Shown here: in pieces, positions 1,981 through 22,724 of the stretch
How positions within the stretch are numbered: the stretch's first letter is position 1
Layout of the letters: every line of letters begins with the position of its first letter
Source: an uncultured Opitutia bacterium
GTDB lineage: Bacteria; Verrucomicrobiota; Verrucomicrobiia; Opitutales; Opitutaceae
Length of the DNA stretch: 33,745 bases
Direction: 5' to 3'
Assembly (NCBI GenBank): GCA_903859715.1
Contig: CAIONS010000059.1
Location: forward strand, 1-33,745
Position numbers and translations under genes: made by a program
Notes under the pieces: model-generated
Told to the model about the DNA's origin: nothing
Databases searched by the model: none
Seen by the model: the letters and a program-made list of their open reading frames with translations, nothing else

Positions 1981-2001
1981 TCCGAGCGCCGCCCCGCCGT
2001 C

Positions 2002-3066
2002 ATGACGCTCTTCCTGCTGGTACTGCTGGCTGCGCTCGTTTTCGAGTACATCAACGGGTTTCACGATACGGCCAACGCCATCGCGACCGTCGTCTCGACC
2101 AAGGTGCTGACGCCGCGCTGGGCCATCGCCTGGGCCGCGATCTTCAATCTCCTCGGCGCCCTGATGGGCACCGCTGTCGCCTCCACCATCGGCAAGGGCC
2201 TCGTCGACACCCACTTTGTCACGATGGCCACCGTCATGTGCGCCCTGCTCAGCGCCATCGTCTGGGGGCTCTTCACGTGGTGGCTGGGGCTGCCCTCCAG
2301 TTCGAGCCATGCCCTCGTCGGCGGGTTGTGCGGCGCCGCACTCGGCACCGCGCATGGTGACTGGAGCGTATTGCACTGGTCCGTAGTCGACAGTCACGGC
2401 GCGAGCAACGGCCTCTGGCCCAAGATCGTGCTACCCATGGTCGCCTCCCCCCTCCTCGGGTTTGTCGGCGGCGCGACCCTGATGTTTCTCCTCACGGTCA
2501 TCCTGCGCAAAGTCACGCCCCGGATGGTCAACCTGATCTTCGGCAAGGCCCAGCTCCTGAGCGCGGGGTTCATGGGCTACAGCCATGGCTCCAATGATGC
2601 CCAGAAAACCATGGGCATCATCGCGCTCGCCCTGTTCACGGGCACTACGTCGGGTGCGTTCAAGGATTTGCCGGCCTGGGCCTCCTTTCTCCGCACGCCC
2701 GAATTCACCGTGCCTTATTGGGTGATGATCACCTGTGCCCTCACGATGGCCGCCGGCACCGCCGCGGGCGGCTGGCGCATCATTCGCACCATGGGACACA
2801 AGATGGTGAAGCTCCAACCGGTGCATGGCTTTGCCGCCGAGACCACCGCCGCGCTCATCATTCACACCGCCTCGACCTACGGCATCCCCGTCTCAACGAC
2901 CCACGTCATCGCCACCTCGATCATGGGCGTCGGTGCTACGAAGCGTTTCAGTGCTGTCAAATGGGGCCTCGTCGGTCGCATCGTCTGGGCTTGGGTGCTC
3001 ACCCTCCCGATCACCGGCCTGCTCGGCTACGGTTTGGTGAACCTACTCCACGCCTTCGGCGTGTGA
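2002..3066 (+). CDS. pit: PiT-family low-affinity phosphate transporter
   Basis: This 354-residue polytopic membrane protein imports inorganic phosphate, probably as metal phosphate with protons. It shows both copies of the PiT signature: FEYINGFHDTANAIATVVST near residues 14-33 and GFMGYSHGSNDAQKTMGI near 189-206. The SSSSHALVGG stretch (about 100) and the later VSTTHVI stretch (about 296) are the paired repeats of the family. About ten membrane segments can be read. It follows the DUF47 gene by 21 nt, the standard pairing. It converges on the phoR end of the Pst/Pho operon, separated by a 22-bp inverted repeat. With Pst it gives the cell both a low-affinity and a high-affinity phosphate uptake route side by side. 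Confidence 0.95.
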   Translation: MTLFLLVLLAALVFEYINGFHDTANAIATVVSTKVLTPRWAIAWAAIFNLLGALMGTAVASTIGKGLVDTHFVTMATVMCALLSAIVWGLFTWWLGLPSSSSHALVGGLCGAALGTAHGDWSVLHWSVVDSHGASNGLWPKIVLPMVASPLLGFVGGATLMFLLTVILRKVTPRMVNLIFGKAQLLSAGFMGYSHGSNDAQKTMGIIALALFTGTTSGAFKDLPAWASFLRTPEFTVPYWVMITCALTMAAGTAAGGWRIIRTMGHKMVKLQPVHGFAAETTAALIIHTASTYGIPVSTTHVIATSIMGVGATKRFSAVKWGLVGRIVWAWVLTLPITGLLGYGLVNLLHAFGV

Positions 3067-3213: not shown

Positions 3214-4419
3214 CTACCCCGCCGCCGGCAGCGTGAAATAAAACGCCGCGCCCTGCCCCGGCTCGCTCTCCACTCGGACTTCCCCGCCGTGGGCCTGCAC
3301 CGCGTGCTTCACAATGGCGAGGCCCAGGCCCGTGCCGCCTTGCTCGCGCGAACGGGCCTTGTCCACCCGGTAGAACCGCTCGAACACGCGCGCCTGCGCC
3401 TCGCGCGGGATGCCCGGGCCGTCGTCCTTCACGCACATTTCAATCCACGCGCCGTCCATGACCCGGCTGCTCACGGTCAGCACGCCGCCCGCGCGGCCAT
3501 ACTTGATGCCGTTGTCCACCAGGTTGGACAGCACCTGCCGGAGCCGGTCGGGATCCGCCTGCGCCACCAAACCGGCCGGCACTGCGTTCTCCAGCCGGAC
3601 TTCGCGCACCCGCGCCCGCTTGGCCAAATCCTCAAACACTTCCTGCGTCGCGGAACGCAGCGCCGAGGGCTCCGGGTGCAGCTCGATCCGGCCCGAGTCG
3701 AGTTTCGCGAGCAACAGCAGGTCGTCGATCAGCAGCGTGAGCCGGTCGGCATGGCGGTCGATGATCTGCAGCAGCCGGTCGAGCGCCGCCGGGTCGGTTT
3801 TCGCGCCGTCGATCAGGGTCTCGGCCGCGCCCTTGATGAGGGAAAGCGGCGTGCGCAGCTCATGGCTGACGTTGGCCACGAATTCCTGCCGCGCGCCCTC
3901 GAGTTCGCGCAGCCGCGTAAGATCGTGAAACACCAGCATCGCCCCGGTGCCGACCCCGGCAGTGTCGCGCAGGGAAACGGCGTTCACCTGCAGCACGCGC
4001 GGCGGCGGGCCTTCCAGCCGCAGTTCGTGATCGAGGATCGCGGTCTCCTTGCCCAGCCGGGCGGCGAGCGCCGCGACTTCATGATGCCGGACCGCCTCCA
4101 GCAGCGTGCCGCCGATCATCTGGCGTGAAAAACCAAAGAGGGTCTCCGCTGCGCGGTTGGCCAGCGTGATCCGGCCGTGCGGATCGAGCACCACCAGCCC
4201 CTCGATCATGCTGTCGAGCAGCGTCTCCAGCCGGTGCTTGTGCGCCTCCAGAGCCTCCGCGTGCCGGGTCTGCAGCTCCGTAAGTTCCTGCGCATGCCGC
4301 GCGGAGTCGGCGGTGCGCAGCCGGCGCACGTGCCACCACGCGGCGAGGGCGGCGAGGGCGAGGAGGGCGAAAAAGGCGGTCACGGCGTGAACAAAGACCG
4401 CGGCCGGGTCACGAGTCAT
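3214..4419 (-). CDS. phoR: PhoR sensor histidine kinase
   Basis: This 401-residue kinase would phosphorylate PhoB when phosphate is low. Order: one N-terminal membrane segment (about 8-30), a short coiled stretch, a PAS domain (about 62-170, MIEGLVVLDPHGRITLANRA), HisKA with the phospho-acceptor His186 (FVANVSHELRTPL), and an ATPase domain with N303 (LSNLVDNGIKYG), DDGPGIP at 332-338 and GTGLGL at 362-367. No sizeable periplasmic domain is present, as in other PhoR proteins, so it should sense through PstSCAB-PhoU rather than bind phosphate directly. It is the last gene of the porin-pst-phoU-phoB-phoR run, and its start overlaps the phoB end by 11 nt, implying translational coupling. Confidence 0.95.
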   Translation of the reverse strand: MTRDPAAVFVHAVTAFFALLALAALAAWWHVRRLRTADSARHAQELTELQTRHAEALEAHKHRLETLLDSMIEGLVVLDPHGRITLANRAAETLFGFSRQMIGGTLLEAVRHHEVAALAARLGKETAILDHELRLEGPPPRVLQVNAVSLRDTAGVGTGAMLVFHDLTRLRELEGARQEFVANVSHELRTPLSLIKGAAETLIDGAKTDPAALDRLLQIIDRHADRLTLLIDDLLLLAKLDSGRIELHPEPSALRSATQEVFEDLAKRARVREVRLENAVPAGLVAQADPDRLRQVLSNLVDNGIKYGRAGGVLTVSSRVMDGAWIEMCVKDDGPGIPREAQARVFERFYRVDKARSREQGGTGLGLAIVKHAVQAHGGEVRVESEPGQGAAFYFTLPAAG

Positions 4420-5095
4420 CCTTGAAACGGTATCCTACCCCGCGGATCGTCTCGAGATAGTCCGCCGCCGGGCCGATTTTCTCGCGCAGCCGGCGCATGT
4501 GCGTGTCGACCGTGCGGGTGTCGATCGCCGTCTCGTAGCCCCACACATCCTGCAGCAGGCGCTCGCGCGTCTGGACGCGGCCGCGGCGCTTGGCCAGCAC
4601 CGCGAGCAGGTTGAATTCCGTGGCGGTGAGCGTGACGGACTTGCCGTCCACGTGCGCCGCATGGTGCGGGATGTCGATCTGCAGCAGCCCGATCTGGAGC
4701 CGGTCGCCGCTGTCCTCGGCGGACTTCGTGCGCTTCAGCAGCTTGCGGACGCGCAGCACCAGCTCGCGCGGGCTGTAGGGTTTCGTGACGTAGTCATCGG
4801 CGCCGAGTTCGAGGCCGACCACCCGGTCCATCTCCGCCGCCTTGGCGGTGAGCATCAGCACGGGGATGCTGGCCGTGGCGGGATCGCGCCGCATGATCTT
4901 GCAGACCTCCAGGCCGTCCAGCTCCGGCAGCATGAGGTCCAGCACGACAAGGTCGGGCCGCTCCGCGCGCACCGCGGCCAAGGCCTTCAGGCCGTCCGTG
5001 GCGAAGATCGGCGTGAAGCCGGCTTCGCGCAGCTTGAAGCCGAGCACCTCGAGCGCGTCGGGCTCATCATCAACGACCAGGATTTTCGATTTCAT
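4409..5095 (-). CDS. phoB: PhoB response regulator
   Basis: This 228-residue OmpR-type regulator is the presumed activator of the Pho promoters in this window. The receiver domain (1-120) has the acidic pair at 9-10, phospho-acceptor Asp53 (LVVLDLMLPELDG), Thr83 and Lys105. The C-terminal winged helix (about 130-226) carries the DNA-recognition segment around RTVDTHMRRLREKIG. The open frame continues far upstream to 5446, but that extension is antisense noise. The ATG at 5095 aligns with family starts and is preceded by an AAGGAG ribosome site. The gene overlaps the phoU end by 26 nt and the phoR start by 11 nt. The three genes are therefore tightly packed. Confidence 0.96.
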   Translation of the reverse strand: MKSKILVVDDEPDALEVLGFKLREAGFTPIFATDGLKALAAVRAERPDLVVLDLMLPELDGLEVCKIMRRDPATASIPVLMLTAKAAEMDRVVGLELGADDYVTKPYSPRELVLRVRKLLKRTKSAEDSGDRLQIGLLQIDIPHHAAHVDGKSVTLTATEFNLLAVLAKRRGRVQTRERLLQDVWGYETAIDTRTVDTHMRRLREKIGPAADYLETIRGVGYRFKDDS

Positions 5096-5753
5096 TGTTC
5101 TCCTTGAGTCCGGCGTGGCGGATATCCCGCGCTTCGTAAAGATAAACCACTTCCTCCGCGATATTCGTGGCGTGGTCGGCGATGCGCTCCAGGCACTTGG
5201 AGATGACCATGAGCGCAAGGCAGCGGGAAATAGTGGTGGGCCGCTCGACCATGTAGCTGGACAGCTCGCGGTGGAGCTGGCGGTTGAGGTCGTCCACTTC
5301 CTTGTCCCGCGGGATGACCGTGCGGGCGAGCTCGGGCTTGCGCTCGACGAAGGCCGACAGCGCATCGCGCAGCATCTCCAGCGCCATCGTCGCCATGCGG
5401 GGCAGGTCGATGTAGGGCTTGAGCTGCGGCTCCTGCCCGAGGTCATGCGCGCGGCGCGCGATCGAGCACGCCTCGTCGCCGACGCGCTCGAGATTCTGGG
5501 AGATCTTCATCGCGACCGTGATGAAGCGCAGCTCGGTGGCCAGCGGGGCCTTCGTCAGGAGGTGCAGGGCGATGTCGTCCACCTCGATCTCAAACTGGTC
5601 GATGATGTTGTCGTCCTCCTGGACCTTCAGCGCGAGGCCGTCGTCGCGTTCGACGAGCGCCCGCATCGCCCGCGCTACGGCGGATTCGGAGTGGCTCGCC
5701 ATCGCGAGGATCGTCTCCTTCAGCTTGTTCATTTCTTCGCTGTAATGTGTCAT
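5070..5753 (-). CDS. phoU: PhoU phosphate signalling regulator
   Basis: This 227-residue all-helical cytoplasmic protein links the Pst transporter to PhoR and keeps the Pho response off when phosphate is plentiful. It is built of the two usual three-helix repeats, each with a metal-binding signature: SQNLERVGDEACSIA near 105-119 and SKCLERIADHATNIAEE near 186-202. The length matches the family (about 220-240 aa). It sits between pstB (40 nt upstream) and phoB (26-nt overlap), the usual arrangement. The E/D-rich C-terminal tail (KENNEIENPGR) is partly set by the overlap with the phoB start. Confidence 0.96.
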   Translation of the reverse strand: MTHYSEEMNKLKETILAMASHSESAVARAMRALVERDDGLALKVQEDDNIIDQFEIEVDDIALHLLTKAPLATELRFITVAMKISQNLERVGDEACSIARRAHDLGQEPQLKPYIDLPRMATMALEMLRDALSAFVERKPELARTVIPRDKEVDDLNRQLHRELSSYMVERPTTISRCLALMVISKCLERIADHATNIAEEVVYLYEARDIRHAGLKENNEIENPGR

Positions 5754-5793
5754 GGGAATGCGGGGTGGATTTGAAGGGCGCGGCGCCGGCGGC

Positions 5794-6666
5794 TCAACCG
5801 AAACGGCCGGAGACGTAGGCTTCCGTCTGGGCGTTGGCCGGATTGGTGAAGATATTCCGCGTGTCGGCGTATTCGATGAGTTTCCCCATGTAGAAGAAGG
5901 CGGTCTTGTCCGAGCAGCGGGCGGCCTGCTGCATGTTGTGCGTGACGATCACGATCGTGAACCGCGTGCGCAGCTCCTGGATCAGCTCCTCCACCTTCGC
6001 CGTCGCCACCGGGTCGAGGGCCGAGCACGGCTCGTCCATGAGGATGACCTCCGGCTCCACCGCGATCGCGCGGGCGATGCAGAGGCGCTGTTGCTGGCCG
6101 CCGGAGAGGCCGAGGCCGCTGGCGTTCAGCCGGTCCTTCACCTCGTCCCAGAGCGCGGCGCCGCGCAGCGACTTCTCCACCACCTCGTCGAGGCGCGCCT
6201 TGTTCGTGACGCCCTGCAGGCGGAGCCCGAAGGTGATGTTCTCGTAGATCGACTTGGGAAACGGGTTGGACTTCTGGAACACCATGCCGACGCGCTTGCG
6301 CAGCTCGATCACGTCGACGTCCGCTTGGTGGATGTCGACGCCGCGGATCTTGATCGAGCCCTTGGCCACCCGCGTGCCGTCAATCAGGTCGTTCATCCGG
6401 TTGAGGCAACGCAGCAGCGTGGACTTGCCGCAGCCCGACGGCCCGATGAAGGCGGTGACCTTTTTGTCCTCGATCTGCAGGCTCACGTCATGCAGCGCCT
6501 GGGACTGGCCGTAGAAGAAATCGACGTGGTCGATGTCGATCAGCGTCTCGGCGGCCGGTGCCGCCTGGCCGGCGGGCGCCGTGGCGGCCGGTGCCGGCGC
6601 CGTCGCCGGACGAATCGTGGGCGCGGAGGGAAGGGTATCCATGAGAATGGGGGCGGTGATTACCAT
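5794..6666 (-). CDS. pstB: PstB phosphate ABC transporter ATPase
   Basis: This is the ATP-binding subunit of the PstSCAB high-affinity phosphate importer. With the start at 6666 it has 290 residues: Walker A GPSGCGKS at 75-82, Q-loop near 131, signature LSGGQQQ at 187-193, Walker B ending DEP at 211-213 and switch His243. Residues 1-40 are a low-complexity Ala/Pro extension before the domain proper begins at [13 protein letters not shown]. The start at 6666 overlaps the pstA stop (ATGGTAA), which suggests coupling. A second possible start is 6642 (MDTLPS). Neither has a clear ribosome site. The open frame further upstream is the shadow of pstA. Confidence 0.95.
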
Positions 6667-7700
6667 TTGTAGCGGTTCCGGAGGCGGTTGCGGAGCACAA
6701 TCGAGGCCGTCGCGATCAAGGCGACGATCAGCAGGAAGACGAACGCGGTGCCGTACTGCACGCGCTCGGTGTATTCGTTCTGGGGAATCTTCGAGCTGAC
6801 GACGTAGATGTGGTACGGCAGCGCCATCACGCCCTGGAAGAAAAAGTCGGAGAACTTGTCCACCTGCCACGGCAGCTTGTCGCGCACGACATAGGCCGCG
6901 GTGAACATGATCGGCGCTGTCTCGCCCGCGACGCGCGCGATGCCGAGGATGGAGGAGGTCAGGATGCCCGGCAAAGCGTAGGGCAGCACGTTCTTGATGA
7001 TGGTCTGCCACTTGGTCGCGCCGAGCGCGAGCGAGCCCTCGCGGAACCCCTTGGGCACGGCCTTGAGCGATTCCTCGGAGGCGGTGATGATCACCGGCAG
7101 CACCATGAACGCCAGGGTGAACCAGCCGGCAAGGAGCGAGACGTTCCAACCGAAGAAAATGACGAATATGCCGAAGCCGAAGAGGCCGAAGACGATCGAG
7201 GGCACGCCCGCGAGGTTGAGGATGGCGAGGCGGACAAAGCGGATGAACGTGCCGTCCCGCGCGTACTCGTTGAGATAGATCGCGGCGCAGACCCCGAGCG
7301 TGAGCGCGATGGCCATCGAGCCGACCACCAGCAGCACCGTGCCCACGATGCAGGGGAAGATCCCGCCGGCGGAGTACACGTAGCTGTCCGACTTCCCCTT
7401 TGCGACGTCCGGATGGGCCGCCTCAAAGGTCCGGAAGGCCGCGTCCCCCAACTCCATCTTCCGGCCCTGGTACTGGAACACATGGAGCGACTCGGGCGCC
7501 TCGGTGAAGAACGTGGTGTTGATGAACGGCGCCCGGGCCTGGAAAACCGTGCCGGCCCCCCGGACCACGATCGTGCCGATGACCACGGCCCCGCAGAGCA
7601 GGACGAAATAGGTCGCGGCCCCGAACAGGAAGAAAATGAAGCCCTCGCGCCGGCGGGCCGAAGTCAGCTGAGCCCTGAAAACGTGGTGGGTGGCGGGCAT
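6660..7700 (-). CDS. pstA: PstA phosphate ABC transporter permease
   Basis: This 346-residue inner-membrane subunit pairs with PstC to form the phosphate channel. There is one membrane segment at about 22-46, a periplasmic stretch of roughly 65 residues (50-112), then the permease core with five further segments. The coupling-helix region [17 protein letters not shown] is the EAA loop that docks PstB. It is longer than E. coli PstA (about 296 aa) because of the N-terminal periplasmic stretch, as in the larger PstA forms of several phyla. The start at 7700 (MPATHHVF) lies 4 nt after the pstC stop; the open frame upstream to 7796 overlaps pstC and is not used. Confidence 0.95.
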
Positions 7701-7704
7701 GGGA

Positions 7705-9300
7705 TCAGCCGATGGAGATGCGATAGCGGCGCACCACGATCTGCGCCACGTAGTTGATGCCGAGCGAGAGGAAGAACAGCAGGATGCCGACGACAAAGAG
7801 CGCCCGGTAGTGGATGCTGCCCTGCACCACCTCGCCCATCTCCTGCGCGATGATCCCGGTCATGGTGTGCACCGGCTGCGTGACGACCGCGAGGCCGGCC
7901 GAAAAATCCGGGATGGCGATGCGGTTACCCGCGCACAGCAGCACGACCATGGTCTCGCCGATCACGCGGCCCAGGCCGAGGAGCACAGCGGAAATGATAC
8001 CGGAGAGGGAGGCCGGCACGATGATCTTGATCACGGTCTGCAGGCGGGTGGCGCCGAGGGCAAACGAAGCCTCCTTGAAGGCGCGCGGCACGTTGTTGAG
8101 CGCGTCCTCCGCCAGCGTGAAGATCGTCGGCACGGCCATCAGGGCCAGCAGGCACCCGGCCGTGAGGATGTTGAGCCGCTCGCTATAGGGGAAACCCGGC
8201 ACCCACGACAGCCAGCTGGCCTGCGACAGCGCCCGCAGGGCTTGGCCCAGCACCGCGATGCCGAAGAAGCCCAGCACCACCGAGGGGATCGCCGAGATGA
8301 ACTCGATGCCGGGCTTGATGAACTTCTGCTCCGCCGGCGTGGCGATCTGGTTGACATAGATCGCCGCCCCCACGCCGAGCGGCACGGCGAGCAGCAGTGC
8401 GACGGCCGAGACCATCAGCGAGCCCACCAGCAGCGGGATCACCCCGTACCAGTCCTGCCAGAAGCTCGCCGTCAGCCATTCGCGGCCAAAAATAAACGAG
8501 GTGAGGGCCTGCACCGCGGGCACCGGCTTGGCATAGTCCCAGGACTCGAGATGCGAGACCACCGCCGGAAACCCGGAGAGGTACTCGCGCGTCAGCTGCT
8601 TGAACCGGTCCATCCGCACCTGCAGCTCGGGCGTCGGCAGTACCGGGGCCGTCGCAAGGACCTGCTCGATCCGCCTTGAAAATTCGGCGCTCGCCTCCTT
8701 GTAGGCCGGCAGGGTGCCAATGATGGGTTTCAGTTCCTCGGCAAAGTTGACGGGCGTGATGATGACGCGATCGGCATCACCCTTCCTGCCCTCGGCCATC
8801 AGCTGGCGGCGCTCCTCCTTCTTGTCCTCCATCACCGTGAATTTCTCCTTGATCGCGGAAGCCTGCTCGGTGAGGTCGGAAACCAGCGTGCGGATCGGCT
8901 CCACCGTGTCGCCGAACTGGCCGGCGAAATCGTCAAAGACTGCAAGCTTTGCGTTGGCGTCCGCCACCGGCAGCTTTGCCTCCTGCGTGTAATGGCGAAA
9001 TTGCCGCAGCCGCAGGTCCGACAGATAGCGCGTGAGCGCGGTGTGGTCATCCTGCTGCGCGCGGATGAAATCGATGTATTCCAGCCCAGCTTGGCGGTAA
9101 ACCGTCAGGTTCTGCCGGTTCTGGCCGAAGAACCCGGCCCCTTCCCGGAAGAGAAAGTAGGTGATGAGCGCGAGGACGATAATCGAGACAATCGCGTTGC
9201 CGCCGAAGAACACGCGGATGCAATCATCGAAACTCAGCCCGAAAAGCCGGATGCGGCTCTTGTTGACCAGTAAGTGCGAGGCGGGGGACGAGGCTTCCAT
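7705..9300 (-). CDS. pstC: PstC phosphate permease with large periplasmic insert
   Basis: This 531-residue subunit is far longer than classical PstC (about 320 aa). There is a membrane segment at about 33-52, followed by some 210 residues (about 55-268) before the permease core begins at [14 protein letters not shown] (281 on). The inserted part is hydrophilic and predicted helical, with heptad-like charged stretches such as [20 protein letters not shown]. The core has the EAA loop [18 protein letters not shown] and the usual membrane segments. Long PstC proteins with an N-terminal domain are known in other phyla; what the insert does here is unknown. The periplasmic location suggests contact with PstS. 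It follows pstS across a terminator-like hairpin. Confidence 0.94.
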
Positions 9301-9345
9301 CTTTGCAAATCCGATGAGACGAAGGGGCGGAAAATTTCCTGAGCC

Positions 9346-9379
9346 AAATCAAAGCCCGCCGGTCCTGGACCGGCGGGCT
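9346..9379 (-). terminator. Intrinsic terminator/attenuator between pstS and pstC
   Basis: A perfect 13-bp GC-rich inverted repeat (arms 9353-9365 and 9367-9379) is followed on the minus strand by TTTGATTT (9353-9346). It lies 25 bases after the pstS stop. Such a hairpin would leave pstS and the porin at high levels while letting a fraction of transcripts run into pstCAB-phoU-phoBR. Confidence 0.8.
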
Positions 9380-9403
9380 GAATTCAAGGGGGGCCAACCG
9401 GAC

Positions 9404-10216
9404 TCAGTTGGTCACCGGAGCGACAAACCCGATCTTCTCGACGATCTTCTTGCCCTCATCGCTGAGGGTGAAGTCGATGAAGTTCTTCGCTTCACCCGTG
9501 GGTTCGCCATTGGTGTAGTAGAACGTCGGTCGCGCATAGGGATATTTCTTCGCCAGCACGGTGGCCTTGCTCGGCACGGAGCCGTCGATGGCGGCGGCCT
9601 TGATTCCGGGTTCGCTCATGTAGGCAAGTCCGACGTAGCCGATGCCATTCGGATTTTTGGCCACTTCGGCGACGATCTGCTCGTTGCCCGCCATCTTCTG
9701 CGAGGAGGAGGCGTAGTCGCGGTTCTTCGTGGCCAGGGCCTTGAAGTCCGAATAGGTGCCCGAGGACGTGTTGCGGGTGTAGATCGAGATCGTGCCCGCC
9801 GCGCCGCCGACCGCCGACCAGTCGGTGATATCGCCGGCAAAGATCTGCTCGACCTGGCGCTTCGTCAGCGCGGAGACCGGGTTGCCGGAATTGAGGATCA
9901 CCGCGATGCCGTCGTAGGCGACGATCGTGGGCTTCATCGAGACACCCTTCGCCTGCGCCGCGGACATTTCGGTCGGCTTCGCCCGGCGGGAGGACATGCC
10001 AATCTGGGCGGTGCCATCGATGATGGCGGCAATGCCGGTGGTCGAACCCTCGGCCGCGATCTCAAAGGAGACGCCGGGATGGCTCGCCTTGTATTCCTCG
10101 GCCAGCGTGGGGACGAGCTTGGCCCCGAGCGTATCGGAGCCCTTGATGACAAGCTTCTGGGCCCAGGCCGTGGCCGTGGCGAAGATCGCCATGGCAATGA
10201 GAATGATTTTTTTCAT
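9404..10216 (-). CDS. pstS: PstS periplasmic phosphate-binding protein
   Basis: This 270-residue solute-binding protein captures phosphate and delivers it to PstCA. The signal peptide is residues 1-19 (cleavage after ATAWA). The phosphate-contacting loops are recognisable: KGSDTLGAKL near 25-34, AEGSTTGIAAI near 55-65, the SRRAKPTE loop near 76-83, and TRNTSSGTYSDF in the second half. No lipobox Cys is present, so it is a free periplasmic protein. It lies 35 nt after the porin stop and before the terminator hairpin, so porin and pstS form the strongly expressed front of the operon. Confidence 0.95.
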   Translation of the reverse strand: MKKIILIAMAIFATATAWAQKLVIKGSDTLGAKLVPTLAEEYKASHPGVSFEIAAEGSTTGIAAIIDGTAQIGMSSRRAKPTEMSAAQAKGVSMKPTIVAYDGIAVILNSGNPVSALTKRQVEQIFAGDITDWSAVGGAAGTISIYTRNTSSGTYSDFKALATKNRDYASSSQKMAGNEQIVAEVAKNPNGIGYVGLAYMSEPGIKAAAIDGSVPSKATVLAKKYPYARPTFYYTNGEPTGEAKNFIDFTLSDEGKKIVEKIGFVAPVTN

Positions 10217-10251: not shown

Positions 10252-11523
10252 TTAGAAATTAACCTGCATCTGGCTGCGGACACCGTCGGTCTTGGCGTTG
10301 GCCGTCCCGCCCGTGACGGTGTCGCGCGACTGGGCGTGCACATAGCCGAGCTGTAGCTTCACGTCATTTCCACGGAAGTAATAATTTCCGCCGAAATACC
10401 ATTCATCCGCCTTGTTCATGGTACCGCCGCTCGGCGATGAACGCGTGGTGTCGCTGAGGTTCACACCCCGGCCATCCGAGTCGATGGAGCTGTAACGGAC
10501 GACCGCTTCAAGGTTCGAGGTCAGCATGTAGGCCGGCTGGATCCAGTAGCCTGAGGGCTTGGCGTCCCGCGTGCCTGCCGCGTTTCCATTCTGATCCTTG
10601 CCGCCGAGATATTCGGCCGAAAGGTCGAAGGGCCCGGTGTTGAGGACCCCGTAGACGGAGTAGACCGTCAGGTTATTTCCCTTGCCCAGAACCAGACCGC
10701 CTTGGTCGGGAAGATCGCCGACGGAAGCACCGAAGCGATACGTCCCGGCCTCGCCGAACTTACCCTTGTAGCCGCCATTAACAAAGTAGGCCAGATTGTT
10801 ATTGGCCGCGGTGCCCGCCGACTGGACGCCGGGATCGGAATTGCCGGTAAGCGAGGAAAACTCGTCGCGCTCGGGGTTGGTGATCGCGACATTGTAGAAG
10901 AAACCATCCTGCGTCCCGCCCACAAAGATGCCCGTACGGTAACTGGCCGCACCAAGGCGCCGGCCGTTGTTCGACTCGACAAAGTAGCGCGTCGCGGGCG
11001 AGCGCTCGATGGCCTTCAGGCTGCCGCTTGAAATATCCCATTCCTCCAAGCCGAGCGGGGCCTTGCGGAAACCCACGTCGACCACCAGCTGGTCGCTTTG
11101 CCGCCAGGTGATGAAGGCCGCGTCAAAGCTGGCGCCGGCGAAGTCGTAATTGAGCGTGCTGCTCCAGCCGTTTCCAAGCTCGGCCTTGGCCCCCAGATAA
11201 ATGCGGCGGAGGAAGAAATGTTCCGTCGACACCGGATTTGCCGCCACGCCGTCGATCGAGGTGCCCAGCCCGGCATATTGGATTTGCAGGCGGCCGCTGA
11301 TCGAAAGCCCCACGGTGCTCTTGCCGCCGGAGATGGTCGAAATGATGCCCGAGGCCGCATCCTTGGTCAGGTCGGCGCGCAATTCTTCCGCCTCCTGGTC
11401 AGTAAGCATGCCTTTCTTTACGAGCACATCGATGAGCGGGCCGCTGTCCTGCGCGAAGGCAGAGCCGGCGGTCAAGAAGGCTCCGACAAGCAGCGCGAGC
11501 CATTTGGATTTCAGGTGAAACAT
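10252..11523 (-). CDS. Phosphate-selective porin, OprP/OprO family
   Basis: This 423-residue outer-membrane beta-barrel probably passes phosphate or polyphosphate into the periplasm. The signal peptide is residues 1-24 (cleavage after AGSAFA). A short helical segment (GPLIDVLVKKGMLTDQEAEELRADL) then precedes the barrel, a common arrangement in these porins. Alternating strands run to the C-terminus, which ends in Phe (SQMQVNF), the barrel-assembly signal. FLRRIYLGAKAELGNGWSST and VDVGFRKAPLG are typical of the OprO/P family. It is the first gene of the pst-pho operon and has the candidate Pho-box promoter directly upstream, so phosphate control is likely. Phosphate selectivity is inferred from family and context; no selectivity loop could be verified. 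Confidence 0.85.
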   Translation of the reverse strand: MFHLKSKWLALLVGAFLTAGSAFAQDSGPLIDVLVKKGMLTDQEAEELRADLTKDAASGIISTISGGKSTVGLSISGRLQIQYAGLGTSIDGVAANPVSTEHFFLRRIYLGAKAELGNGWSSTLNYDFAGASFDAAFITWRQSDQLVVDVGFRKAPLGLEEWDISSGSLKAIERSPATRYFVESNNGRRLGAASYRTGIFVGGTQDGFFYNVAITNPERDEFSSLTGNSDPGVQSAGTAANNNLAYFVNGGYKGKFGEAGTYRFGASVGDLPDQGGLVLGKGNNLTVYSVYGVLNTGPFDLSAEYLGGKDQNGNAAGTRDAKPSGYWIQPAYMLTSNLEAVVRYSSIDSDGRGVNLSDTTRSSPSGGTMNKADEWYFGGNYYFRGNDVKLQLGYVHAQSRDTVTGGTANAKTDGVRSQMQVNF

Positions 11524-11562: not shown

Positions 11563-11607
11563 ATCATGCCCCCCGATTGTTACGATTGCGTGGCGGCCTC
11601 GTGACAA
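11563..11607 (-). promoter_or_regulatory. Candidate Pho box and -10 for porin-pst-pho operon
   Basis: Reading the minus strand from 11607 there are three 7-mers at exact 11-bp steps: TTGTCAC, CCGCCAC, TCGTAAC (11607-11601, 11596-11590, 11585-11579). Ten bases later comes CATGAT (11568-11563), a 4/6 match to the -10. PhoB binds direct 7-bp repeats spaced by 4 bp and replaces the -35 contact about 10 bp before the -10. The same layout recurs at 17041-17085. Its site before a phosphate porin is the expected one. Confidence 0.7.
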
Positions 11608-17040: not shown

Positions 17041-17085
17041 ACGTCACCCCAGCGTCACGCGTTCGCCACACAGGTCGGTCATGTT
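17041..17085 (+). promoter_or_regulatory. Candidate Pho box and -10 for glycolipid operon
   Basis: Three 7-mers at exact 11-bp steps, ACGTCAC (17041-17047), GCGTCAC (17052-17058) and TCGCCAC (17063-17069), are followed after 10 bp by CATGTT (17080-17085). This repeats the layout of the porin promoter at 11563-11607 base for base in spacing. A start of transcription near 17092 would leave a 25-nt leader before the GTG at 17117. Confidence 0.65.
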
Positions 17086-17116
17086 ACGGACCAAAATCCG
17101 TCACACGCCCACCCAT

Positions 17117-18259
17117 GTGAAGCTCACCATCGTCACCGAAACCTTCCCGCCCGAAATCAACGGCGTGGCCATGACCTTTGGCCACATCGCCAGCGAACTC
17201 GGCCGGCGCGGGCATCAGGTGACGGTCTGCCGCCCCCGGCGGGATGATTTGTCCAACGGCGCCGCCCACCCCGAGTTTCACGAGGTCGCACTGCCCGGCC
17301 TGCCCATCCCGGGCTATCCCCTGTTGCGGCTCGGCCTGCCCGCCGGCGGCCGGCTCCGCCGCCGCTGGCGCGCCGACCGTCCCGATCTCGTCCACGTTGT
17401 CACCGAGGGACCGCTCGGCACCTCCGCCGTCACCGCTGCGCGGGAACTCGACGTGCCGGTAACCTCCAGCTTTCACACCAACTTCCACACTTACACGGCG
17501 CACTATGGTTTCGCCCCGCTGCGCCATGCCGCGCTGGGCTGGTTGCGCCACGTGCACAACCGCACCGTACGCACGTTCGCCCCGACCACCGAGCTGTGCG
17601 CGGAATTGACGGCGCTCGGTTTCGTCGGGCTCCGGGTGCTTTCACGCGGGGTCGATACTGTTCAGTTCAATCCCGGCCAAGCCTCGACCGCACTGCGCGC
17701 CACGTGGGGCGCCGGCCCGGATGATCCTGTCGTGCTGCATGCCGGCCGCATGGCCGCGGAAAAAAACTATCCCCTGCTTTTCCGCGCCTTTGCCGCCCTC
17801 CGCGCGGCCGAGCCCCGCTGCCGCTTTGTGCTCGTCGGCGACGGCCCGCTCCGGCCCCGGCTCGAACGCGAGCATCCCGACTGCCTGTTCACCGGCTTCA
17901 TTCCCCGCGAGGAGCTCGCGCGCCACTACGCTTCGGCCGATCTCTACGTTCACGCCAGTCTCACCGAGACATTCGGCAATGTCCTGACCGAGGCCATGGC
18001 CAGCGGGCTCGCCGTTGCCGGTTTCGACTACGCCGCCGCCCGCCAGTTTATCCGTGACGGCGAAAACGGGCTGACCGTCCCCTGCGACCAGCCCGACCGG
18101 CTGATCGCCGCCGCCGTCCGCCTCGCCACGGACGCCCCGCTGCGCACCCGCCTGCGCCGGGCCGCCCGGCTCACCCTTGAACCCCAGTCCTGGGACCACG
18201 TCATCACCCGCTTCGAGGCCGACTTGCTAGCCGTCGTCGCCGCCCACCGCTCCTCATGA
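17117..18259 (+). CDS. GT4-family glycosyltransferase (MgtA/SqdX-like)
   Basis: This 380-residue retaining glycosyltransferase has the GT-B fold of family GT4, whose lipid-acting members include MgtA and SqdX. The N-terminus KLTIVTETFPPEINGVAMT carries the acceptor-side motif, and SFHTNFHTY follows near 119-126. The nucleotide-sugar motif E-x7-E is at Glu284/Glu292 (LTETFGNVLTEAMASG). No signal or membrane segment is seen. The frame is open from 16844, but that region holds repeats and the promoter. The GTG at 17117 matches family starts and is embedded in ATGTGAAG, where the ATG is out of frame and stops at once. Its last codons overlap the next gene (ATGA). The sugar donor is unknown; a glycolipid product is inferred from the neighbours. 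Confidence 0.88.
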   Translation: MKLTIVTETFPPEINGVAMTFGHIASELGRRGHQVTVCRPRRDDLSNGAAHPEFHEVALPGLPIPGYPLLRLGLPAGGRLRRRWRADRPDLVHVVTEGPLGTSAVTAARELDVPVTSSFHTNFHTYTAHYGFAPLRHAALGWLRHVHNRTVRTFAPTTELCAELTALGFVGLRVLSRGVDTVQFNPGQASTALRATWGAGPDDPVVLHAGRMAAEKNYPLLFRAFAALRAAEPRCRFVLVGDGPLRPRLEREHPDCLFTGFIPREELARHYASADLYVHASLTETFGNVLTEAMASGLAVAGFDYAAARQFIRDGENGLTVPCDQPDRLIAAAVRLATDAPLRTRLRRAARLTLEPQSWDHVITRFEADLLAVVAAHRSS

Positions 18260-19386
18260 CCAAGATCCTCATCCTCACCGCCGGCTTCGGCGAAGGCCAC
18301 AACGCCGCCGCCCGCGCACTCGCCGCCGCCATCGACCGCGAGGCCGGTGAAGGCGCCGCGGTCGTCGCGGACATCTTCGCCCTCGCTGCTCCGCGTTTCA
18401 ATTCCCTCGCCCGTCACGGCTACCTCTCGCTCATTAATCGCGCACCGCACGCCTGGAGCCGCCTGTACCACTGGATCGACCGGTCCCACATCGTCGAGCG
18501 CCGCCTCTGGTTCTTCGCGCGTGAAACCCGCGTGCTTCGCCACCTGCTCGCGCGCGAGCGGCCCGACGCCGTCTGCTGCACATTTCCCGTCTGCACGTTC
18601 CTGCTCAATCACATCGCGCGCACCGGCGGCCCCGCCCTCCCCCGGTTCAACATCGTCACCGACTCCATCAGCATCCACTCGCTCTGGTACCGCGCCCCCT
18701 GCGACGGCTGGTTCCTGCCCAACGACGACTCCGCCGCCGTCGTCCTGCGCGCCGGCCTCGATCCCGCGCGCGTGCACGTCCCCGGTTTTCCGGTGCCGGC
18801 GATTTTCGCCCGGGAGGCCGGCGTGCTCACGCCACCCGAGCTCGCCACCGGCGCCGCACCGCGCGTCCTGCAGATCATCAACTCCGGCAAACGCCACGCC
18901 GCCGAAACCGCCCGCCGCCTCCTCGCTGAGGACGACTGGGAAATCACCTGCGCCGTCGGCCGCGACGAGCGCCTGTTCCGTCAGCTCACCGCCCTCGCCG
19001 CCGGCCGGAAGCGGCCCGCCACTATCCTCGGCTGGACGCATCAGATCCCTCACCTGCTCATGACGCACCACGCCGTCGTCAGCAAAGCCGGTGGCGCCAC
19101 CACGCAGGAAGCCATCAACGCCCTCTGCCCGATGATCGTCAGCCAGATCGTGCCCGGCCAGGAGGAGGGTAACTACGAGTTGCTCCGCCGTCACGGTGCC
19201 GGGGCGCTTGCACCCACGCCTGACGCCGTCATCGCGACACTGCGCCAGGCCTTCGCCGACCGCGGCCGCGTGTGGCGCGAATGGCGCGCCGCGCTGGCGC
19301 CGATTTCCCACCCCGAGGCCGCGCGCGACATCGCCCGCCACGTCCTCGCCACCGTTGAACCGCGCCCCGTCGTCTCACTCGCATGA
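18256..19386 (+). CDS. MGDG-synthase/UgtP-like diacylglycerol glycosyltransferase
   Basis: This 376-residue GT-B enzyme resembles monogalactosyldiacylglycerol synthases and processive diacylglycerol glucosyltransferases. The N-terminal domain has the GEGHNAAARAL signature (12-22, the GxGH loop that contacts the lipid acceptor), and the C-terminal domain has the donor loop VVSKAGGATTQEAINALCPMI (about 273 on) with the SKAGG motif. By family it transfers a hexose to diacylglycerol at the inner membrane surface. It overlaps the previous gene and the following kinase gene by ATGA on both sides, so the three are translated together. Next to a PlcP-like enzyme that yields diacylglycerol, it is the best candidate for making the first glycolipid. 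The sugar cannot be read from sequence. Confidence 0.87.
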   Translation: MTKILILTAGFGEGHNAAARALAAAIDREAGEGAAVVADIFALAAPRFNSLARHGYLSLINRAPHAWSRLYHWIDRSHIVERRLWFFARETRVLRHLLARERPDAVCCTFPVCTFLLNHIARTGGPALPRFNIVTDSISIHSLWYRAPCDGWFLPNDDSAAVVLRAGLDPARVHVPGFPVPAIFAREAGVLTPPELATGAAPRVLQIINSGKRHAAETARRLLAEDDWEITCAVGRDERLFRQLTALAAGRKRPATILGWTHQIPHLLMTHHAVVSKAGGATTQEAINALCPMIVSQIVPGQEEGNYELLRRHGAGALAPTPDAVIATLRQAFADRGRVWREWRAALAPISHPEAARDIARHVLATVEPRPVVSLA

Positions 19387-20327
19387 AAGCCCGCTTCATC
19401 CTTAACCCCTGCTCCGGCCGCAATGTCCGCCGTCCCTGGCTCGCGGGATTCGTCCGCGACTTCATCGCCACCCGCGCGCTCGACGCCGACCTCGTCCTGA
19501 CCGAGCGCCCGGGCCACGCCACCGAGCTGGCGCAGGCCGCCCTCGCCGCGGGTTGCGACCGGGTCATCGCCATCGGTGGCGACGGCACCATGAACGAGAC
19601 CGCCCAGGCGCTGCTGCACACGCCCGCTGCGCTCGGCCTCGTGCCCTGCGGCTCCGGCAACGGCCTCGCGCTCCATCTCGACATTCCGACGAAACTGCCC
19701 GCCGCGCTCGCGCTCGCCGCCGATCCCGCCGCCCGCGTCGCCGCGATCGATACCGGCACAGCCAACGGCCGGTCCTTCTTCAATGCCATGGGCTGCGGCT
19801 TCGATGCCGACGTCAGCCGCCGTTTCAACCGCCTCACGCGCCGCGGCCTCGGCGCCTACGCCCGCACCGGCTTCGCCGCCTTCCGCGCGCGGCAGCGCGA
19901 ATGGACCGTCATCCACGGCGGCGGCCGCACCGAGGCCCTGCACACGTTCCTGGTCGCGGTCGCCAATTCCGACCAGTACGGCAACAACGCCCTCATCGCC
20001 CCCGGCGCCCGCGTCGACGATGGCCAGCTCGACCTGGTCGCCGTGCGGCCCGTCGGATACGCGAGCGCCGTCCCGCTCATCGCCCGGCTGTTTCTCGGCA
20101 ACCTGAGCGACAGCCCGCGCGTGATCCGCCTCCGGGACACGCACTTTCTGATCGAACGCTCCCGCCCCGGCCTCATTCACACCGACGGTGAGACCCACAT
20201 GACCGGTGCCACCATCGAGGTCCTGGCCCAGCCCCGCAGCCTCCGCCTGCTCGTGCCCGCCCACGCCCGCGTCATCCCTGCCGATGAAGCCCGCGCTCCC
20301 CGCGGCTTCGCCTTCTCCCCGCCATGA
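19383..20327 (+). CDS. Diacylglycerol kinase family lipid kinase (DagK/YegS)
   Basis: This 314-residue soluble lipid kinase uses ATP to phosphorylate diacylglycerol or a related lipid. The catalytic domain starts ILNPCSG and has GGDGTMNE at 65-72 and PCGSGNGLA at 88-96, both diagnostic. The C-terminal beta-sandwich contains the DGQLDLV and HTDGE motifs of the family. Length is typical (about 290-320). It is the third gene of the coupled run. In a locus that would release diacylglycerol from phospholipids, it could return excess diacylglycerol to phosphatidic acid or tune the flow into glycolipids. The exact substrate (diacylglycerol, ceramide or other) is not decided by sequence. Confidence 0.9.
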   Translation: MKARFILNPCSGRNVRRPWLAGFVRDFIATRALDADLVLTERPGHATELAQAALAAGCDRVIAIGGDGTMNETAQALLHTPAALGLVPCGSGNGLALHLDIPTKLPAALALAADPAARVAAIDTGTANGRSFFNAMGCGFDADVSRRFNRLTRRGLGAYARTGFAAFRARQREWTVIHGGGRTEALHTFLVAVANSDQYGNNALIAPGARVDDGQLDLVAVRPVGYASAVPLIARLFLGNLSDSPRVIRLRDTHFLIERSRPGLIHTDGETHMTGATIEVLAQPRSLRLLVPAHARVIPADEARAPRGFAFSPP

Positions 20328-20359
20328 CCGCGCTCACGCACCCGATTCCTTTCTTCCGC

Positions 20360-20384
20360 GATTGTCACGTAATACGTGACAATC
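20360..20384. promoter_or_regulatory. Perfect 25-bp palindrome upstream of plcP (site 1)
   Basis: GATTGTCACGTA, A, TACGTGACAATC is perfectly symmetric around base 20372. The core TGTCACnTAATAnGTGACA is shared with site 2, centred 45 bp downstream. It looks like an operator for a dimeric regulator that is not encoded in a recognisable place here. It lies in the 151-bp gap between the kinase gene and plcP. Confidence 0.6.
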
Positions 20385-20404
20385 TCACCCCGGGCCCTGG
20401 CGCC

Positions 20405-20429
20405 CAATGTCACTTAATAGGTGACATTG
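20405..20429. promoter_or_regulatory. Near-perfect 25-bp palindrome upstream of plcP (site 2)
   Basis: CAATGTCACTTA, A, TAGGTGACATTG has one mismatched pair around base 20417. The arms differ from site 1 outside the core, so this is not a simple duplication. It lies 49 bp before the plcP start. Confidence 0.6.
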
Positions 20430-20478
20430 TCCGCGCTGCGGCCGGGAACCATCCGAAGCGGAAACTTCCGGCTTTCCC

Positions 20479-21288
20479 ATGAAATCCACCCTGAACGTCC
20501 GCACCGTCATTCTCTCCGACGTGCATCTCGGCACGTCAGAGTGCAAGGCCCGCGAAGTGAATCATTTCCTCCGCCACGTCCGCTGCGACAAACTCATCCT
20601 CAACGGCGACATCATCGACGGCTGGCAGCTCCGCCGCGGCGGCCAGTGGACCAAGGCCCACACGCGTTTCATCCGCATCATCCTCAAGAAACTTGAGAAG
20701 CGCGACACCGAGGTGATTTACCTGCGGGGCAATCACGACGACATCCTCGCGTCGTTTCTGCCCCTCGACTTCGAGCAGCTCCGCATTGTCGAGGACTACG
20801 TGCACGAAAGCCCGCGCGGCCGCTACCTCGTGTTGCATGGCGACGTGTTCGACACCGTCACCCGGAATTTCGTCTTTCTCGCCCACCTCGGCGACTGGGG
20901 CTATCGGATCCTGCTCAAGCTCAACCGCGCCTACAACGCGTGGCGCGCGTGGCGCGGCAAGGAGTACTGGTCGCTCAGCAAGGCGATCAAGGCCCGCGTC
21001 AAGGAAGCCGTCAGCCACGTATCGAACTTTGAGGAACACATCGCGCAGCTCGCCCAGGAACGCGGCTGCACCGGCGTGATGTGCGGCCACATCCACACCG
21101 CCGCCGACAAAATGCTGGGCAGCGTCCACTATCTCAATTCTGGCGACTGGGTCGAGTCGCTCACCGCCGTCGTCGAGCATCTCGACGGCCGCTACGAGTT
21201 GATCGAGTACGTGAACTTCATCCGCGAATTCCCGCCGGAGCCGGAAGCCGCCGAGGAGGCCAGGGTCGAAACCGCCGGCGCAATGTAG
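20479..21288 (+). CDS. plcP: PlcP-like metallophosphoesterase (phospholipase C)
   Basis: This 269-residue protein is a calcineurin-type phosphoesterase with all metal motifs: SDVHLG (13-18), GDIIDG (43-48), GNHD (84-87), HGD (120-122) and GHIH (203-206). Segments YWSLSKAIKARVKEAVSH, SNFEEHIAQLA and NSGDWVESLTAVVEHLDGR place it with the PlcP branch of the LpxH-like family. PlcP of Sinorhizobium is a phosphate-starvation phospholipase C that cleaves phospholipids to diacylglycerol and a phosphorylated head group. The upstream glycosyltransferases and lipid kinase fit that role. The alternative is a UDP-2,3-diacylglucosamine hydrolase (lipid A). The start follows the palindrome region. Its stop TAG and the Met before it come from the repeat starting at 21284. 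Confidence 0.85.
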   Translation: MKSTLNVRTVILSDVHLGTSECKAREVNHFLRHVRCDKLILNGDIIDGWQLRRGGQWTKAHTRFIRIILKKLEKRDTEVIYLRGNHDDILASFLPLDFEQLRIVEDYVHESPRGRYLVLHGDVFDTVTRNFVFLAHLGDWGYRILLKLNRAYNAWRAWRGKEYWSLSKAIKARVKEAVSHVSNFEEHIAQLAQERGCTGVMCGHIHTAADKMLGSVHYLNSGDWVESLTAVVEHLDGRYELIEYVNFIREFPPEPEAAEEARVETAGAM

Positions 21289-21440
21289 GGCGGGGTCGCC
21301 GACCCCGCCAAACCTCCGTCAACCTTCCTGCAGATATCCCGGATCGATCCGGATAAATTCCGGTCATCCGCGAAGATTCGCATAATTCGCGGGAAGGTAC
21401 TCGCGGATCGATCAGGCGGGGTAGCGACCCCGCCCTACAT
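21284..21440. repeat. Inverted GTAGGGCGGGG element between plcP and waaA
   Basis: The two ends (21284-21309 and 21415-21440) begin, reading inwards, with ATGTAGGGCGGGGTCGC in opposite orientation. The ends carry their own CGGGGTCG/CGACCCCG hairpins. The centre has CCGGATCGATCCGG and a CGCGAA/TTCGCG hairpin. It supplies the stop codons of both flanking convergent genes and may serve as a two-way terminator. Confidence 0.75.
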
Positions 21441-22724
21441 CCCCAGCTTCGCCAGCTCCTCGCGGATCACAGCCAGCGTCCGGTTCATCGCGCCGGCATT
21501 ATCCCGCCGCCACTCGCCCGCGGCCGCTGCGATTTCCGCCCGTCGCGTCGCGTCGCCCAGCAACTCCGTCGCGCGCTCCGCCAGCACCACCGGATCCGTG
21601 ACCTCAATGGCAGCATGACGCGCCAGCAGGTCGCGCGCGATCAGCCGGAAATTTCCCATGCCCGGCCCAAACAGCATCGGCTTTTCCAGCGCCGCGGCCT
21701 CGACCGGGGTTTGGCCCTCCGTGTGCGGCGGCAGGCTCTTGCCCACGAAGACCAGATCCGCCAGCTGCAGCAACTGGCGCAGCTCGCCCGTCGTGTCGGC
21801 CACCGCCACATCCACTTCGCCCGCCGCAGACCCGCCCGAACGAAAATGAAACCGCAGCCCCGTGTCCCGCAGCAGGCGTTCCAGCTCGGCCCGACGTTCC
21901 GCATGCCTCGGCACCAGCAGCAGCGAACAGTCCCGACCGGCCGCGCGGCCGCGGCGCAGTGTTTCGATCAGTGCGGCTTCCTCTCCCGGCCAGGTCGACG
22001 AACCCATCAGCACGAGTCCGTCGGGCAGCCCGAGCTCGCGGCGCAGGTCCGCCTTCCTTTCCGCCGTCAGCCGCGGAATCGCGACATCGAGCTTGATGTT
22101 TCCGGTGGTGGTGAGCCGCCCCGGCGGAAATCTCAGTTCCAAAAACCGCGCCGCATCCTGCGCCGAGCAGGGCAGCAGCCGCGTGATGTCCTCCAGCATG
22201 AGTCGCGCCGCCGCCGGAAACGATTTCATCCGGCGAAAGCTGCGATCGGACAGCCGCGCATTGATGCACAGCACCGGCACGCCGCGCGCCGCCGCCTGGT
22301 GGATGTGCTCCGGCCAGCGCTCGCCCTCGGTCAGGATCACGAGGTCCGGGGCAATCTGCCGCCACGCCCGGTGCGCGAACGGCCACCAGTCGAGGGGAAA
22401 GTAGCCGAGGCCGATGGTCTGGCCGCGGTGGCGCTCGGCCGCCAGCCGGTAGCCGGTGCTGGTCGTGGTCGTGAGATAGAGTTCGACACCGTCCGTCTTC
22501 ACCAGCGCCTCGATCAGCGGCGCGATGGCGAGGACTTCACCCACGCTCACCGCCTGCAGCCAGACCCGCCGGACGCCCGGGCGTTTGGCCGGCAGTCCCG
22601 CGTGCGCCCCGAACCGGTGCAGGAAATTCTCCCCGTAACCGCCGCGCCGCCGCATCCGCCACAAGTAGGCCGGAGCCATCACCAGCAGCACGGGCAGGAA
22701 GAGAATGCGGTAAAGCCAGAGCAT
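21435..22724 (-). CDS. waaA: WaaA, Kdo transferase
   Basis: This 429-residue GT-B enzyme attaches 3-deoxy-D-manno-octulosonate (Kdo) to lipid A precursor. An N-terminal membrane anchor is at about 3-22. The catalytic glutamate is Glu63 in WLQAVSVGEVLA. The donor-binding part is clear: PVEAAALEKPMLFGPGMGNF near 345-364, after VGKSLPPHTEGQTP. The usual TEIWPN-type motif reads LTEGERWPEH, a modest deviation that may be lineage-specific. Presence of waaA shows a Gram-negative LPS envelope. It stands alone, convergent to plcP; its last Met-stop (ATG TAG) lies inside the repeat element. Confidence 0.95.
   Translation of the reverse strand: MLWLYRILFLPVLLVMAPAYLWRMRRRGGYGENFLHRFGAHAGLPAKRPGVRRVWLQAVSVGEVLAIAPLIEALVKTDGVELYLTTTTSTGYRLAAERHRGQTIGLGYFPLDWWPFAHRAWRQIAPDLVILTEGERWPEHIHQAAARGVPVLCINARLSDRSFRRMKSFPAAARLMLEDITRLLPCSAQDAARFLELRFPPGRLTTTGNIKLDVAIPRLTAERKADLRRELGLPDGLVLMGSSTWPGEEAALIETLRRGRAAGRDCSLLLVPRHAERRAELERLLRDTGLRFHFRSGGSAAGEVDVAVADTTGELRQLLQLADLVFVGKSLPPHTEGQTPVEAAALEKPMLFGPGMGNFRLIARDLLARHAAIEVTDPVVLAERATELLGDATRRAEIAAAAGEWRRDNAGAMNRTLAVIREELAKLGM

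Follow-up and report, generated by a model that had tools for sequence, protein, structure and literature searches.

A predicted Pho box and a PlcP-type phosphoesterase in a putative four-gene glycolipid cluster of an Opitutaceae bacterium

Introduction

The pairing of the phospholipase C PlcP with a family 4 glycosyltransferase (GT4) is already known (PMC4796936), and good descriptions exist of PlcP accompanied by a Pho box and the GT4 enzyme Agt (PMC4796936, PMC8528852, PMC8231724, PMC3972451). In Pseudomonas aeruginosa PlcP-Agt makes glycolipids under phosphate stress (PMC8528852), and the SAR11 Agt produces MGDG and GADG in Escherichia coli (PMC4796936, in which types 3 and 5 are reported with ‘some putative glycosyltransferases’). 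Type Ia methanotrophs have plcP next to another putative diacylglycerol (DAG) glycosyltransferase, which resembles that of Bacillus subtilis, with no Agt adjoining and no mention of a kinase (PMC9239053); by our own reading this transferase would be a family 28 enzyme (GT28) of the UgtP type. For Pseudomonas putida BIRD-1, DagK and PlcP are both named as Pi-responsive lipid-remodelling proteins, with OlsAB in place of glycosyltransferases and, in the text available, no mention of a common operon (PMC5082522). A PlcP homologue is on record in one verrucomicrobium single-cell genome (PMC4796936), while PlcP is given as absent from verrucomicrobial methanotrophs (PMC9239053). Here we analyse a cluster of four genes, for a GT4, a GT28, a lipid kinase and a PlcP-type metallophosphoesterase, in a 33,745-nucleotide stretch of DNA (the window) from an uncultured Opitutia bacterium (contig CAIONS010000059.1), and argue from sequence comparison that it is very probably a PhoB-controlled membrane-lipid replacement operon.

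The PlcP-Agt operons of P. aeruginosa, SAR11 and Methylosinus resemble this cluster in that PlcP adjoins a GT4, and Pho boxes have been reported both in P. aeruginosa and in plcP clusters of marine bacteria (PMC8528852, PMC4796936, PMC9239053). The window differs from them in having GT4 first and PlcP last, an extra GT28 and kinase, the motif TETFG in its GT4 and a box of three repeats. In searches that covered literature listings and selected open papers, we met with no account of the four-gene set, of proteins fusing GT4 with PlcP, or of a Pho box in Verrucomicrobiota. Lipid replacement driven by phosphate has been characterised for the most part in Proteobacteria; our reading would extend it to the Verrucomicrobiota and would give the Opitutaceae a concrete, testable predicted Pho box.

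Organization of the cluster

The elements on which the argument turns are as follows.

17041..17070, plus strand: predicted Pho box (CGTCAC/CGTCAC/CGCCAC, 11-bp period) 5' of GT4; position weight matrix (PWM) score 20.7
17117..18259, plus strand: GT4 glycosyltransferase, predicted first DAG glycosyltransferase (PF13439/PF00534/PF13692)
18256..19386, plus strand: GT28, MGDG-synthase/UgtP-like DAG glycosyltransferase (PF06925, 64.8 bits; NCBIfam UgtP type; phmmer)
19383..20327, plus strand: predicted YegS/BmrU-type lipid (DAG) kinase (PF00781, PF19279, GGDGT motif)
20479..21288, plus strand: PlcP-type metallophosphoesterase, predicted intracellular phospholipase C (PF00149, tree, motifs)
11578..11607, minus strand: Pho box of the porin-pst-pho operon, a member of the PWM training set; PWM score 40.3
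10252..11523, minus strand: phosphate-selective porin O/P, first gene of the pst operon (PF07396)
3214..10216, minus strand: pstS-pstC-pstA-pstB-phoU-phoB-phoR (PF12849, BPD_transp_1 twice, ABC_tran, PhoU, Response_reg with Trans_reg_C, HisKA with HATPase)

The four open reading frames (ORFs) lie on a common strand, and both of the ATGA overlaps seen in the original prediction are present, coupling GT4 to GT28 (18256-18259) and GT28 to the kinase (19383-19386). Glyco_transf_4 with Glycos_transf_1, MGDG_synth, DAGK_cat with YegS_C, and Metallophos were all found above their Pfam gathering scores. Position 17041, from which the locus was first counted, is not where a gene starts: GT4 begins at a GTG at 17117 (alternatively at an ATG at 17081), and 17041 is the first position of the predicted Pho box. 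The complete pst-pho operon reported nearby is indeed there, headed by the porin and 5.5 kb from the lipid cluster, with genes for a ClC channel and an SNF2 helicase between the porin operon and GT4 on the other strand. The source genome is 3.18 Mb and 97.8% complete; its closest relatives are metagenome-assembled genomes of Opitutae/Opitutaceae, with PlcP identities of up to 92%, which supports the Verrucomicrobiota host first supposed, here of Opitutaceae type.

A predicted Pho box common to the GT4 and porin-pst promoters

The proteobacterial Pho-box consensus is CTGTCATNNNNCTGTCAY. At least 11 matches to it were found in seven of 92 regions upstream of GT4, where 3.3 were expected, which was not convincing, and TGTCA repeated at 11-bp spacing, which peaked in 10/92, was only suggestive. 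As the proteobacterial box was thus not clearly enriched, a box was learnt instead from porin O/P promoters of the same family. Porin O/P genes were gathered from 80 same-family genomes (30 genomes with a match, giving 30 loci); their upstream regions have in common three repeats with an 11-bp period, and 28 of the 30 were used to build the PWM. This was applied to the 92 GT4 upstream regions, which comprise 41 close-relative loci, 50 survey loci from across the phylum and the window. Sites of 10 bits or more lay 5' of GT4 at 50/92 loci, with 0.0 expected from resampled sequences: at 39/41 close relatives, at 10/50 survey loci and in the window (48/89 overall once three near-identical copies, one of them the same contig twice, were left out). 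A site scoring at least 12 was present at 36 of the 41 close-relative loci with GT4 upstream DNA. By comparison, 40 control regions from the survey genomes (600,040 bases, positions picked by the analyst) held one PWM site of at least 10 and none of at least 12.

Within the window only two places score 8 or more, the porin/pst promoter, which was in the training set, and 17041-17070, which was not. A pattern drawn from both sites has exact matches in the 3.18 Mb genome at those two places only; since it was fitted to both, what counts is that no other exact match exists. Three more matches appear at two mismatches, where the reversed control gives one. Among 48 relative loci (653 kb; compared loci carry the prefix L) there are 18 further sites scoring at least 12, and at five loci a further site lies beside porin matches (L015, L016, L025, L027 and L046). 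The porin match is followed by pstS in the window, L129 and L191, the three-repeat box standing before the porin at the head of the pst operon. In the survey of the phylum described below, pst, phoU or pit genes occurred in 16/90 PlcP regions as against 0/40 controls (Fisher p 0.0018). The phosphate control that had been proposed for the cluster finds support in both the predicted box and the pho genes near PlcP across the phylum.

These results also bear on a simpler reading, in which the operon has a housekeeping role in glycolipid synthesis: a sugar lipid would be made constantly by GT4 and GT28, the kinase would recycle DAG, PlcP would only trim lipids and phosphate would be irrelevant. 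In Gram-positive bacteria GT28 of the UgtP type does have a housekeeping role, and the GT4-GT28 order is strongly conserved among the close relatives. We nevertheless consider this improbable, because within the genome the box before GT4 is shared with the porin/pst promoter only, and pho genes lie near PlcP across the phylum.

The window contains a second phosphate transport unit at 1339-3066, a PhoU-like DUF47 protein with a PHO4/Pit permease. The same pair also adjoins PlcP in L154 and lies inside the PlcP regions L035 and L191.

The phosphoesterase and its relation to LpxH

All five metal motifs attributed to the phosphoesterase can be read in its translation (DVH, GDIID, GNHDD, HGD and GHIH). 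The protein has 46–50% identity to the P. aeruginosa protein adjoining its glycosyltransferase and 38–41% to the Sinorhizobium meliloti protein adjoining a pair of AHL (acyl-homoserine lactone) synthase and LuxR genes, and only 21% to E. coli LpxH. In a 44-row tree the six LpxH rows split off with support of 100/99 and the window protein sits among the PlcP references, the order among PlcP rows being partly without resolution. The tree row for P. aeruginosa PA3219 was chosen by its adjoining transferase and that for S. meliloti PlcP, which we take to be SMc00171, by its AHL-synthase/LuxR neighbours. The window protein has GNHD as its motif 3, as do 7/7 PlcP references and 90/90 survey proteins, whereas LpxH has GNRDF in 5/6 and GNHDI in 1/6. 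GDWVES follows a similar division (window, 6/7 PlcP references and 66/90 survey proteins; 0/6 LpxH). HGD was detected in 80/90 survey PlcP proteins, which may mean that certain distant members vary at this motif.

The two families have the calcineurin-like fold and the metal motifs in common, and LpxH is the nearest solved fold. A different view of the locus would be that the phosphoesterase is the lipid A enzyme LpxH and the cluster serves envelope biosynthesis and not the phosphate response. The gene next to it is involved in this argument:

21435-22724, convergent: kdtA, 3' of PlcP (Pfam)

The phosphoesterase is, moreover, the sole match to the LpxH model in the genome, and the 25 best Foldseek neighbours of its AlphaFold model (moderate, pLDDT 79.9) are all LpxH, at a TM score of about 0.54. 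A fold match at this level fails to separate PlcP from the LpxH family, however, and LpxH as nearest solved fold is expected of a sister family; a sequence search of the PDB with the phosphoesterase yields LpxH alone, and that at E 0.23, which makes LpxH the natural nearest fold in any case. On the curated LpxH model the protein scores 38.5 bits against a cut-off of 134. The genome carries LpxI and has no other LpxH-model match, so lipid A could be made without need of the window phosphoesterase. The kdtA gene is convergent, and is more than 1.5 kb from PlcP in L002, L007 and L011. Together with the separate LpxH clade, the GNHDD in place of GNRDF and the Pho-box-like site common to the GT4 and porin/pst promoters, this leaves an LpxH function extremely unlikely. 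On its motifs and its place in the tree we therefore assign the predicted protein to PlcP, not LpxH, in agreement with the original prediction, which a place among the LpxH proteins would have refuted.

Glycosyltransferases and kinase

The GT4 is 33% identical over 320 amino acids to the P. aeruginosa transferase beside PlcP. Its two best NCBIfam models are lipid glycosyltransferases, with scores far under the cut-offs. The donor motif GRMAAEKN fits the GRVAxEKN type, and the catalytic His region reads HTNFHTY, the His being matched by motif, not by structure. In GTcp the catalytic Asp lies in TDTFG and the exchange D256E costs more than 90% of activity (PMC8231724). The window GT4 has TETFG, that is Glu, so the defining catalytic-Asp feature of the Agt group fails. 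Glu was found in 50/50 readable survey GT4 partners of the window's class (two further ones were unreadable), and Asp in 8/8 GT4 partners outside that class and in 2/2 proteobacterial ones checked. The GT4 tree likewise has three groups, Agt (100/99), the Glu-type enzymes of the window's class (85/98) and the Asp-type enzymes of other classes (99/98), whose order is without resolution, the outgroup branches being long and two outgroup rows coming from the source genome itself. Given the Glu and the separate groups, the window GT4 may be Agt-like in role and is not to be filed as Agt. The Asp-type (TDTFG) partners of PlcP outside the class are those of L163, L182, L183, L185, L186, L198, L202 and L203; this pairing with a different GT4 suggests that lipid glycosyltransferases joined PlcP on more than one occasion. 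In a Parabacteroides locus (L077) the gene after PlcP, at 6744-7895, is an MJ1255/VC2487-type glycosyltransferase, neither a window-type GT4 nor clearly a GT28.

The GT28 passes the Pfam MGDG_synth model (64.8 bits against a gathering score of 25) and falls short of the NCBIfam UgtP equivalog (149 bits, cut-off 500), and thus is not the same equivalog; its phmmer matches include the processive DAG glucosyltransferase 9wde and the MGDG synthase 4wyi. GT4 most likely glycosylates DAG made by PlcP. For GT28, whose family includes the processive DAG transferases, the likeliest role is to lengthen the glycosyl-DAG or to make a second species.

The kinase has the DAGK_cat and YegS_C domains and the GGDGT motif, and scores 117.6 bits on TIGR00147, just below the cut-off of 118.65. 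As the genome also encodes another DAGK_cat protein and an integral DgkA, the kinase of the operon may be a dedicated copy; its likeliest role is to convert surplus DAG into phosphatidic acid again. Kinases acting on other lipids are also found in the DAGK_cat/YegS families, and this, with the additional kinases in the genome, would fit a reading in which the substrate of this kinase and of one transferase is not DAG (but ceramide or a glycolipid anchor, for instance), the product being a special and not a bulk replacement lipid. A precedent of that kind is Caulobacter, in which a glycosphingolipid is made under phosphate stress by two sequential transferases (PMC6445935). We think this unlikely, as PlcP is expected to supply DAG, GT28 falls in DAG-glycosyltransferase families and, in Pseudomonas, DagK is listed with PlcP among the Pi-responsive lipid-remodelling proteins (PMC5082522).

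Distribution of the cluster and GT4-PlcP fusions

Among 48 relatives, a sample biased towards close kin, the gene order was GT4-GT28-DGK-PlcP in 30 (DGK being the kinase), GT4-GT28-PlcP in 11 and GT4-DGK-PlcP in two; three held only the 3' part at a contig start and two had PlcP alone. The order is not due to chance. A cultured strain, Geminisphaera colitermitum TAV2 (L034), is among the relatives with GT4-GT28-PlcP. For the phylum as a whole, PlcP (E ≤1e-20) was present in 88 of 288 genomes drawn evenly from it, own genome included, and 90 other PlcP regions were examined, two of which, at contig ends, hold fragments of a single gene (genome G160). Counted on the PlcP strand, these comprise 23 GT4-PlcP regions, 21 with GT4 and PlcP in one reading frame, six GT4-DGK-PlcP, five GT4-PlcP-GT28, five PlcP-GT28, one GT4-GT28-PlcP, one with kinases only, four with all four genes and 24 with PlcP alone, having no same-strand GT4, GT28 or kinase close by. 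Some of the last lie at contig ends, and L200 has a GT28 on the other strand. The five PlcP-GT28 regions without GT4 resemble the type Ia methanotrophs, in which PlcP is linked to a DAG transferase (PMC9239053). GT4-PlcP is the commonest core of the system in the window's class; GT28 and the kinase come on top of it and frequently occur together in the Opitutaceae. From the low count of the full set beside those of the GT4-PlcP pairs and fusions, we read the four-gene locus as a form of the known PlcP-glycosyltransferase pathway that has been elaborated in the Opitutaceae. The claim that the arrangement is unusual holds in part: the exact set with its kinase was not found described in the literature searched, and the GT4-PlcP core was already known. 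The common control site and the fusions are more interesting than the four-gene set itself.

All 21 one-frame cases belong to one family (f7; examples are L140, L142, L149, L165, L174 and L179), with GT4 N-terminal, PlcP C-terminal and a short linker. Of 13 that were inspected in detail, 11 show an ordinary GT4 part followed by a linker of 15–22 residues without stops; in the other two (L173 and L188) the GT4 part is weak and possibly degenerate, and the gap is 93–94 residues long. A search of plasmids with one region gave, among the best 5 of 716 records, four of groEL and one that carried no annotation. A protein search showed PlcP and the transferase as separate genes in all of the best 12 of 359 records. 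A gene fusion of this kind is good evidence that both enzymes act in one pathway, and it allows a direct test of DAG hand-over from phospholipase to glycosyltransferase. We would suggest, tentatively, that in Verrucomicrobiota PlcP and GT4 form one machine, fused in one family into about 630 residues that would pass DAG directly, to which the Opitutaceae operon may add a chain-extending transferase and a reversing kinase valve. If true, the valve would let Opitutaceae run the lipid exchange backwards once phosphate returns.

Regions with PlcP alone were also scanned for betaine or ornithine lipid genes, with one neighbouring ORF taken in each of 9/24; none was found. Eight neighbours belong to other families (mannonate dehydratase, mechanosensitive channel, MTHFR, tRNA synthetase, hybrid histidine kinase, PBP-type binding protein, secretin and phosphofructokinase) and the ninth gave no match, and this candidate association was dropped.

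Proposed pathway

In the operon that we favour, phosphate shortage would lead PhoB, whose gene lies about 12 kb away, to bind the three-repeat box at 17041-17070 and to induce GT4-GT28-DGK-PlcP, presumably as a single transcript, jointly with the porin-pst operon. PlcP would then cut the phosphate head group off phospholipids, most likely phosphatidylethanolamine or phosphatidylglycerol, to give DAG. GT4 would add the first sugar, probably from a UDP-sugar, and GT28 would either extend this to di- or oligoglycosyl-DAG or make a second, beta-linked species; the kinase would return surplus DAG to phosphatidic acid.

Several observations weigh against this interpretation, beginning with the poor showing of the proteobacterial consensus and the Glu of TETFG. 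No PWM site was found in 42/92 GT4 upstream regions, 40 of them among the 50 survey loci. These 42 include six same-family GT4-DGK-PlcP loci, L032, L041 and L130, 19/19 fusion loci tested, and L129, which has all four genes and whose site falls between the porin and PlcP, not upstream of GT4. A two-repeat motif (TGTGAC, then CG 11 bp on) is present in nine of 19 f7 fusions and in four of six upstream regions of family f11, against expectations of 0.28 and 0.09, and in 0/18 other upstream regions; it was spotted by eye and tested after the fact, which makes it a lead only, and could serve these families as their Pho box. It was seen 5' of GT4 in L157, L170, L176 and L180 besides the nine fusions. 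In addition, 24/90 PlcP regions have PlcP alone, and the palindromes described below could uncouple PlcP from the operon. The box at 17041-17070 is a predicted operator, and a search alone does not show PhoB binding.

Palindromes between the kinase and PlcP

One further feature lies within the cluster.

20328..20478, plus strand: gap between kinase and PlcP with two dispersed palindromes (20363-20381 and 20408-20426)

This spacing is 151 bp in the window, and the kinase and PlcP matches abut in L007, L012, L019 and L022. Both copies have the core GTCAC-N7-GTGAC. Genome-wide there are 27 forward matches at up to two mismatches (for example L053, L054, L064 and L072), against one for the reversed control. 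An operator role for the pair was weighed and rejected, the palindrome being a dispersed, hairpin-like family: in 22 distinct copies the arms are lengthened, by up to 12 more pairs, by flanks that differ and yet are complementary. It is possibly a REP-like element or a terminator family, and it is also found directly before PlcP in L002, L008, L011 and L016.

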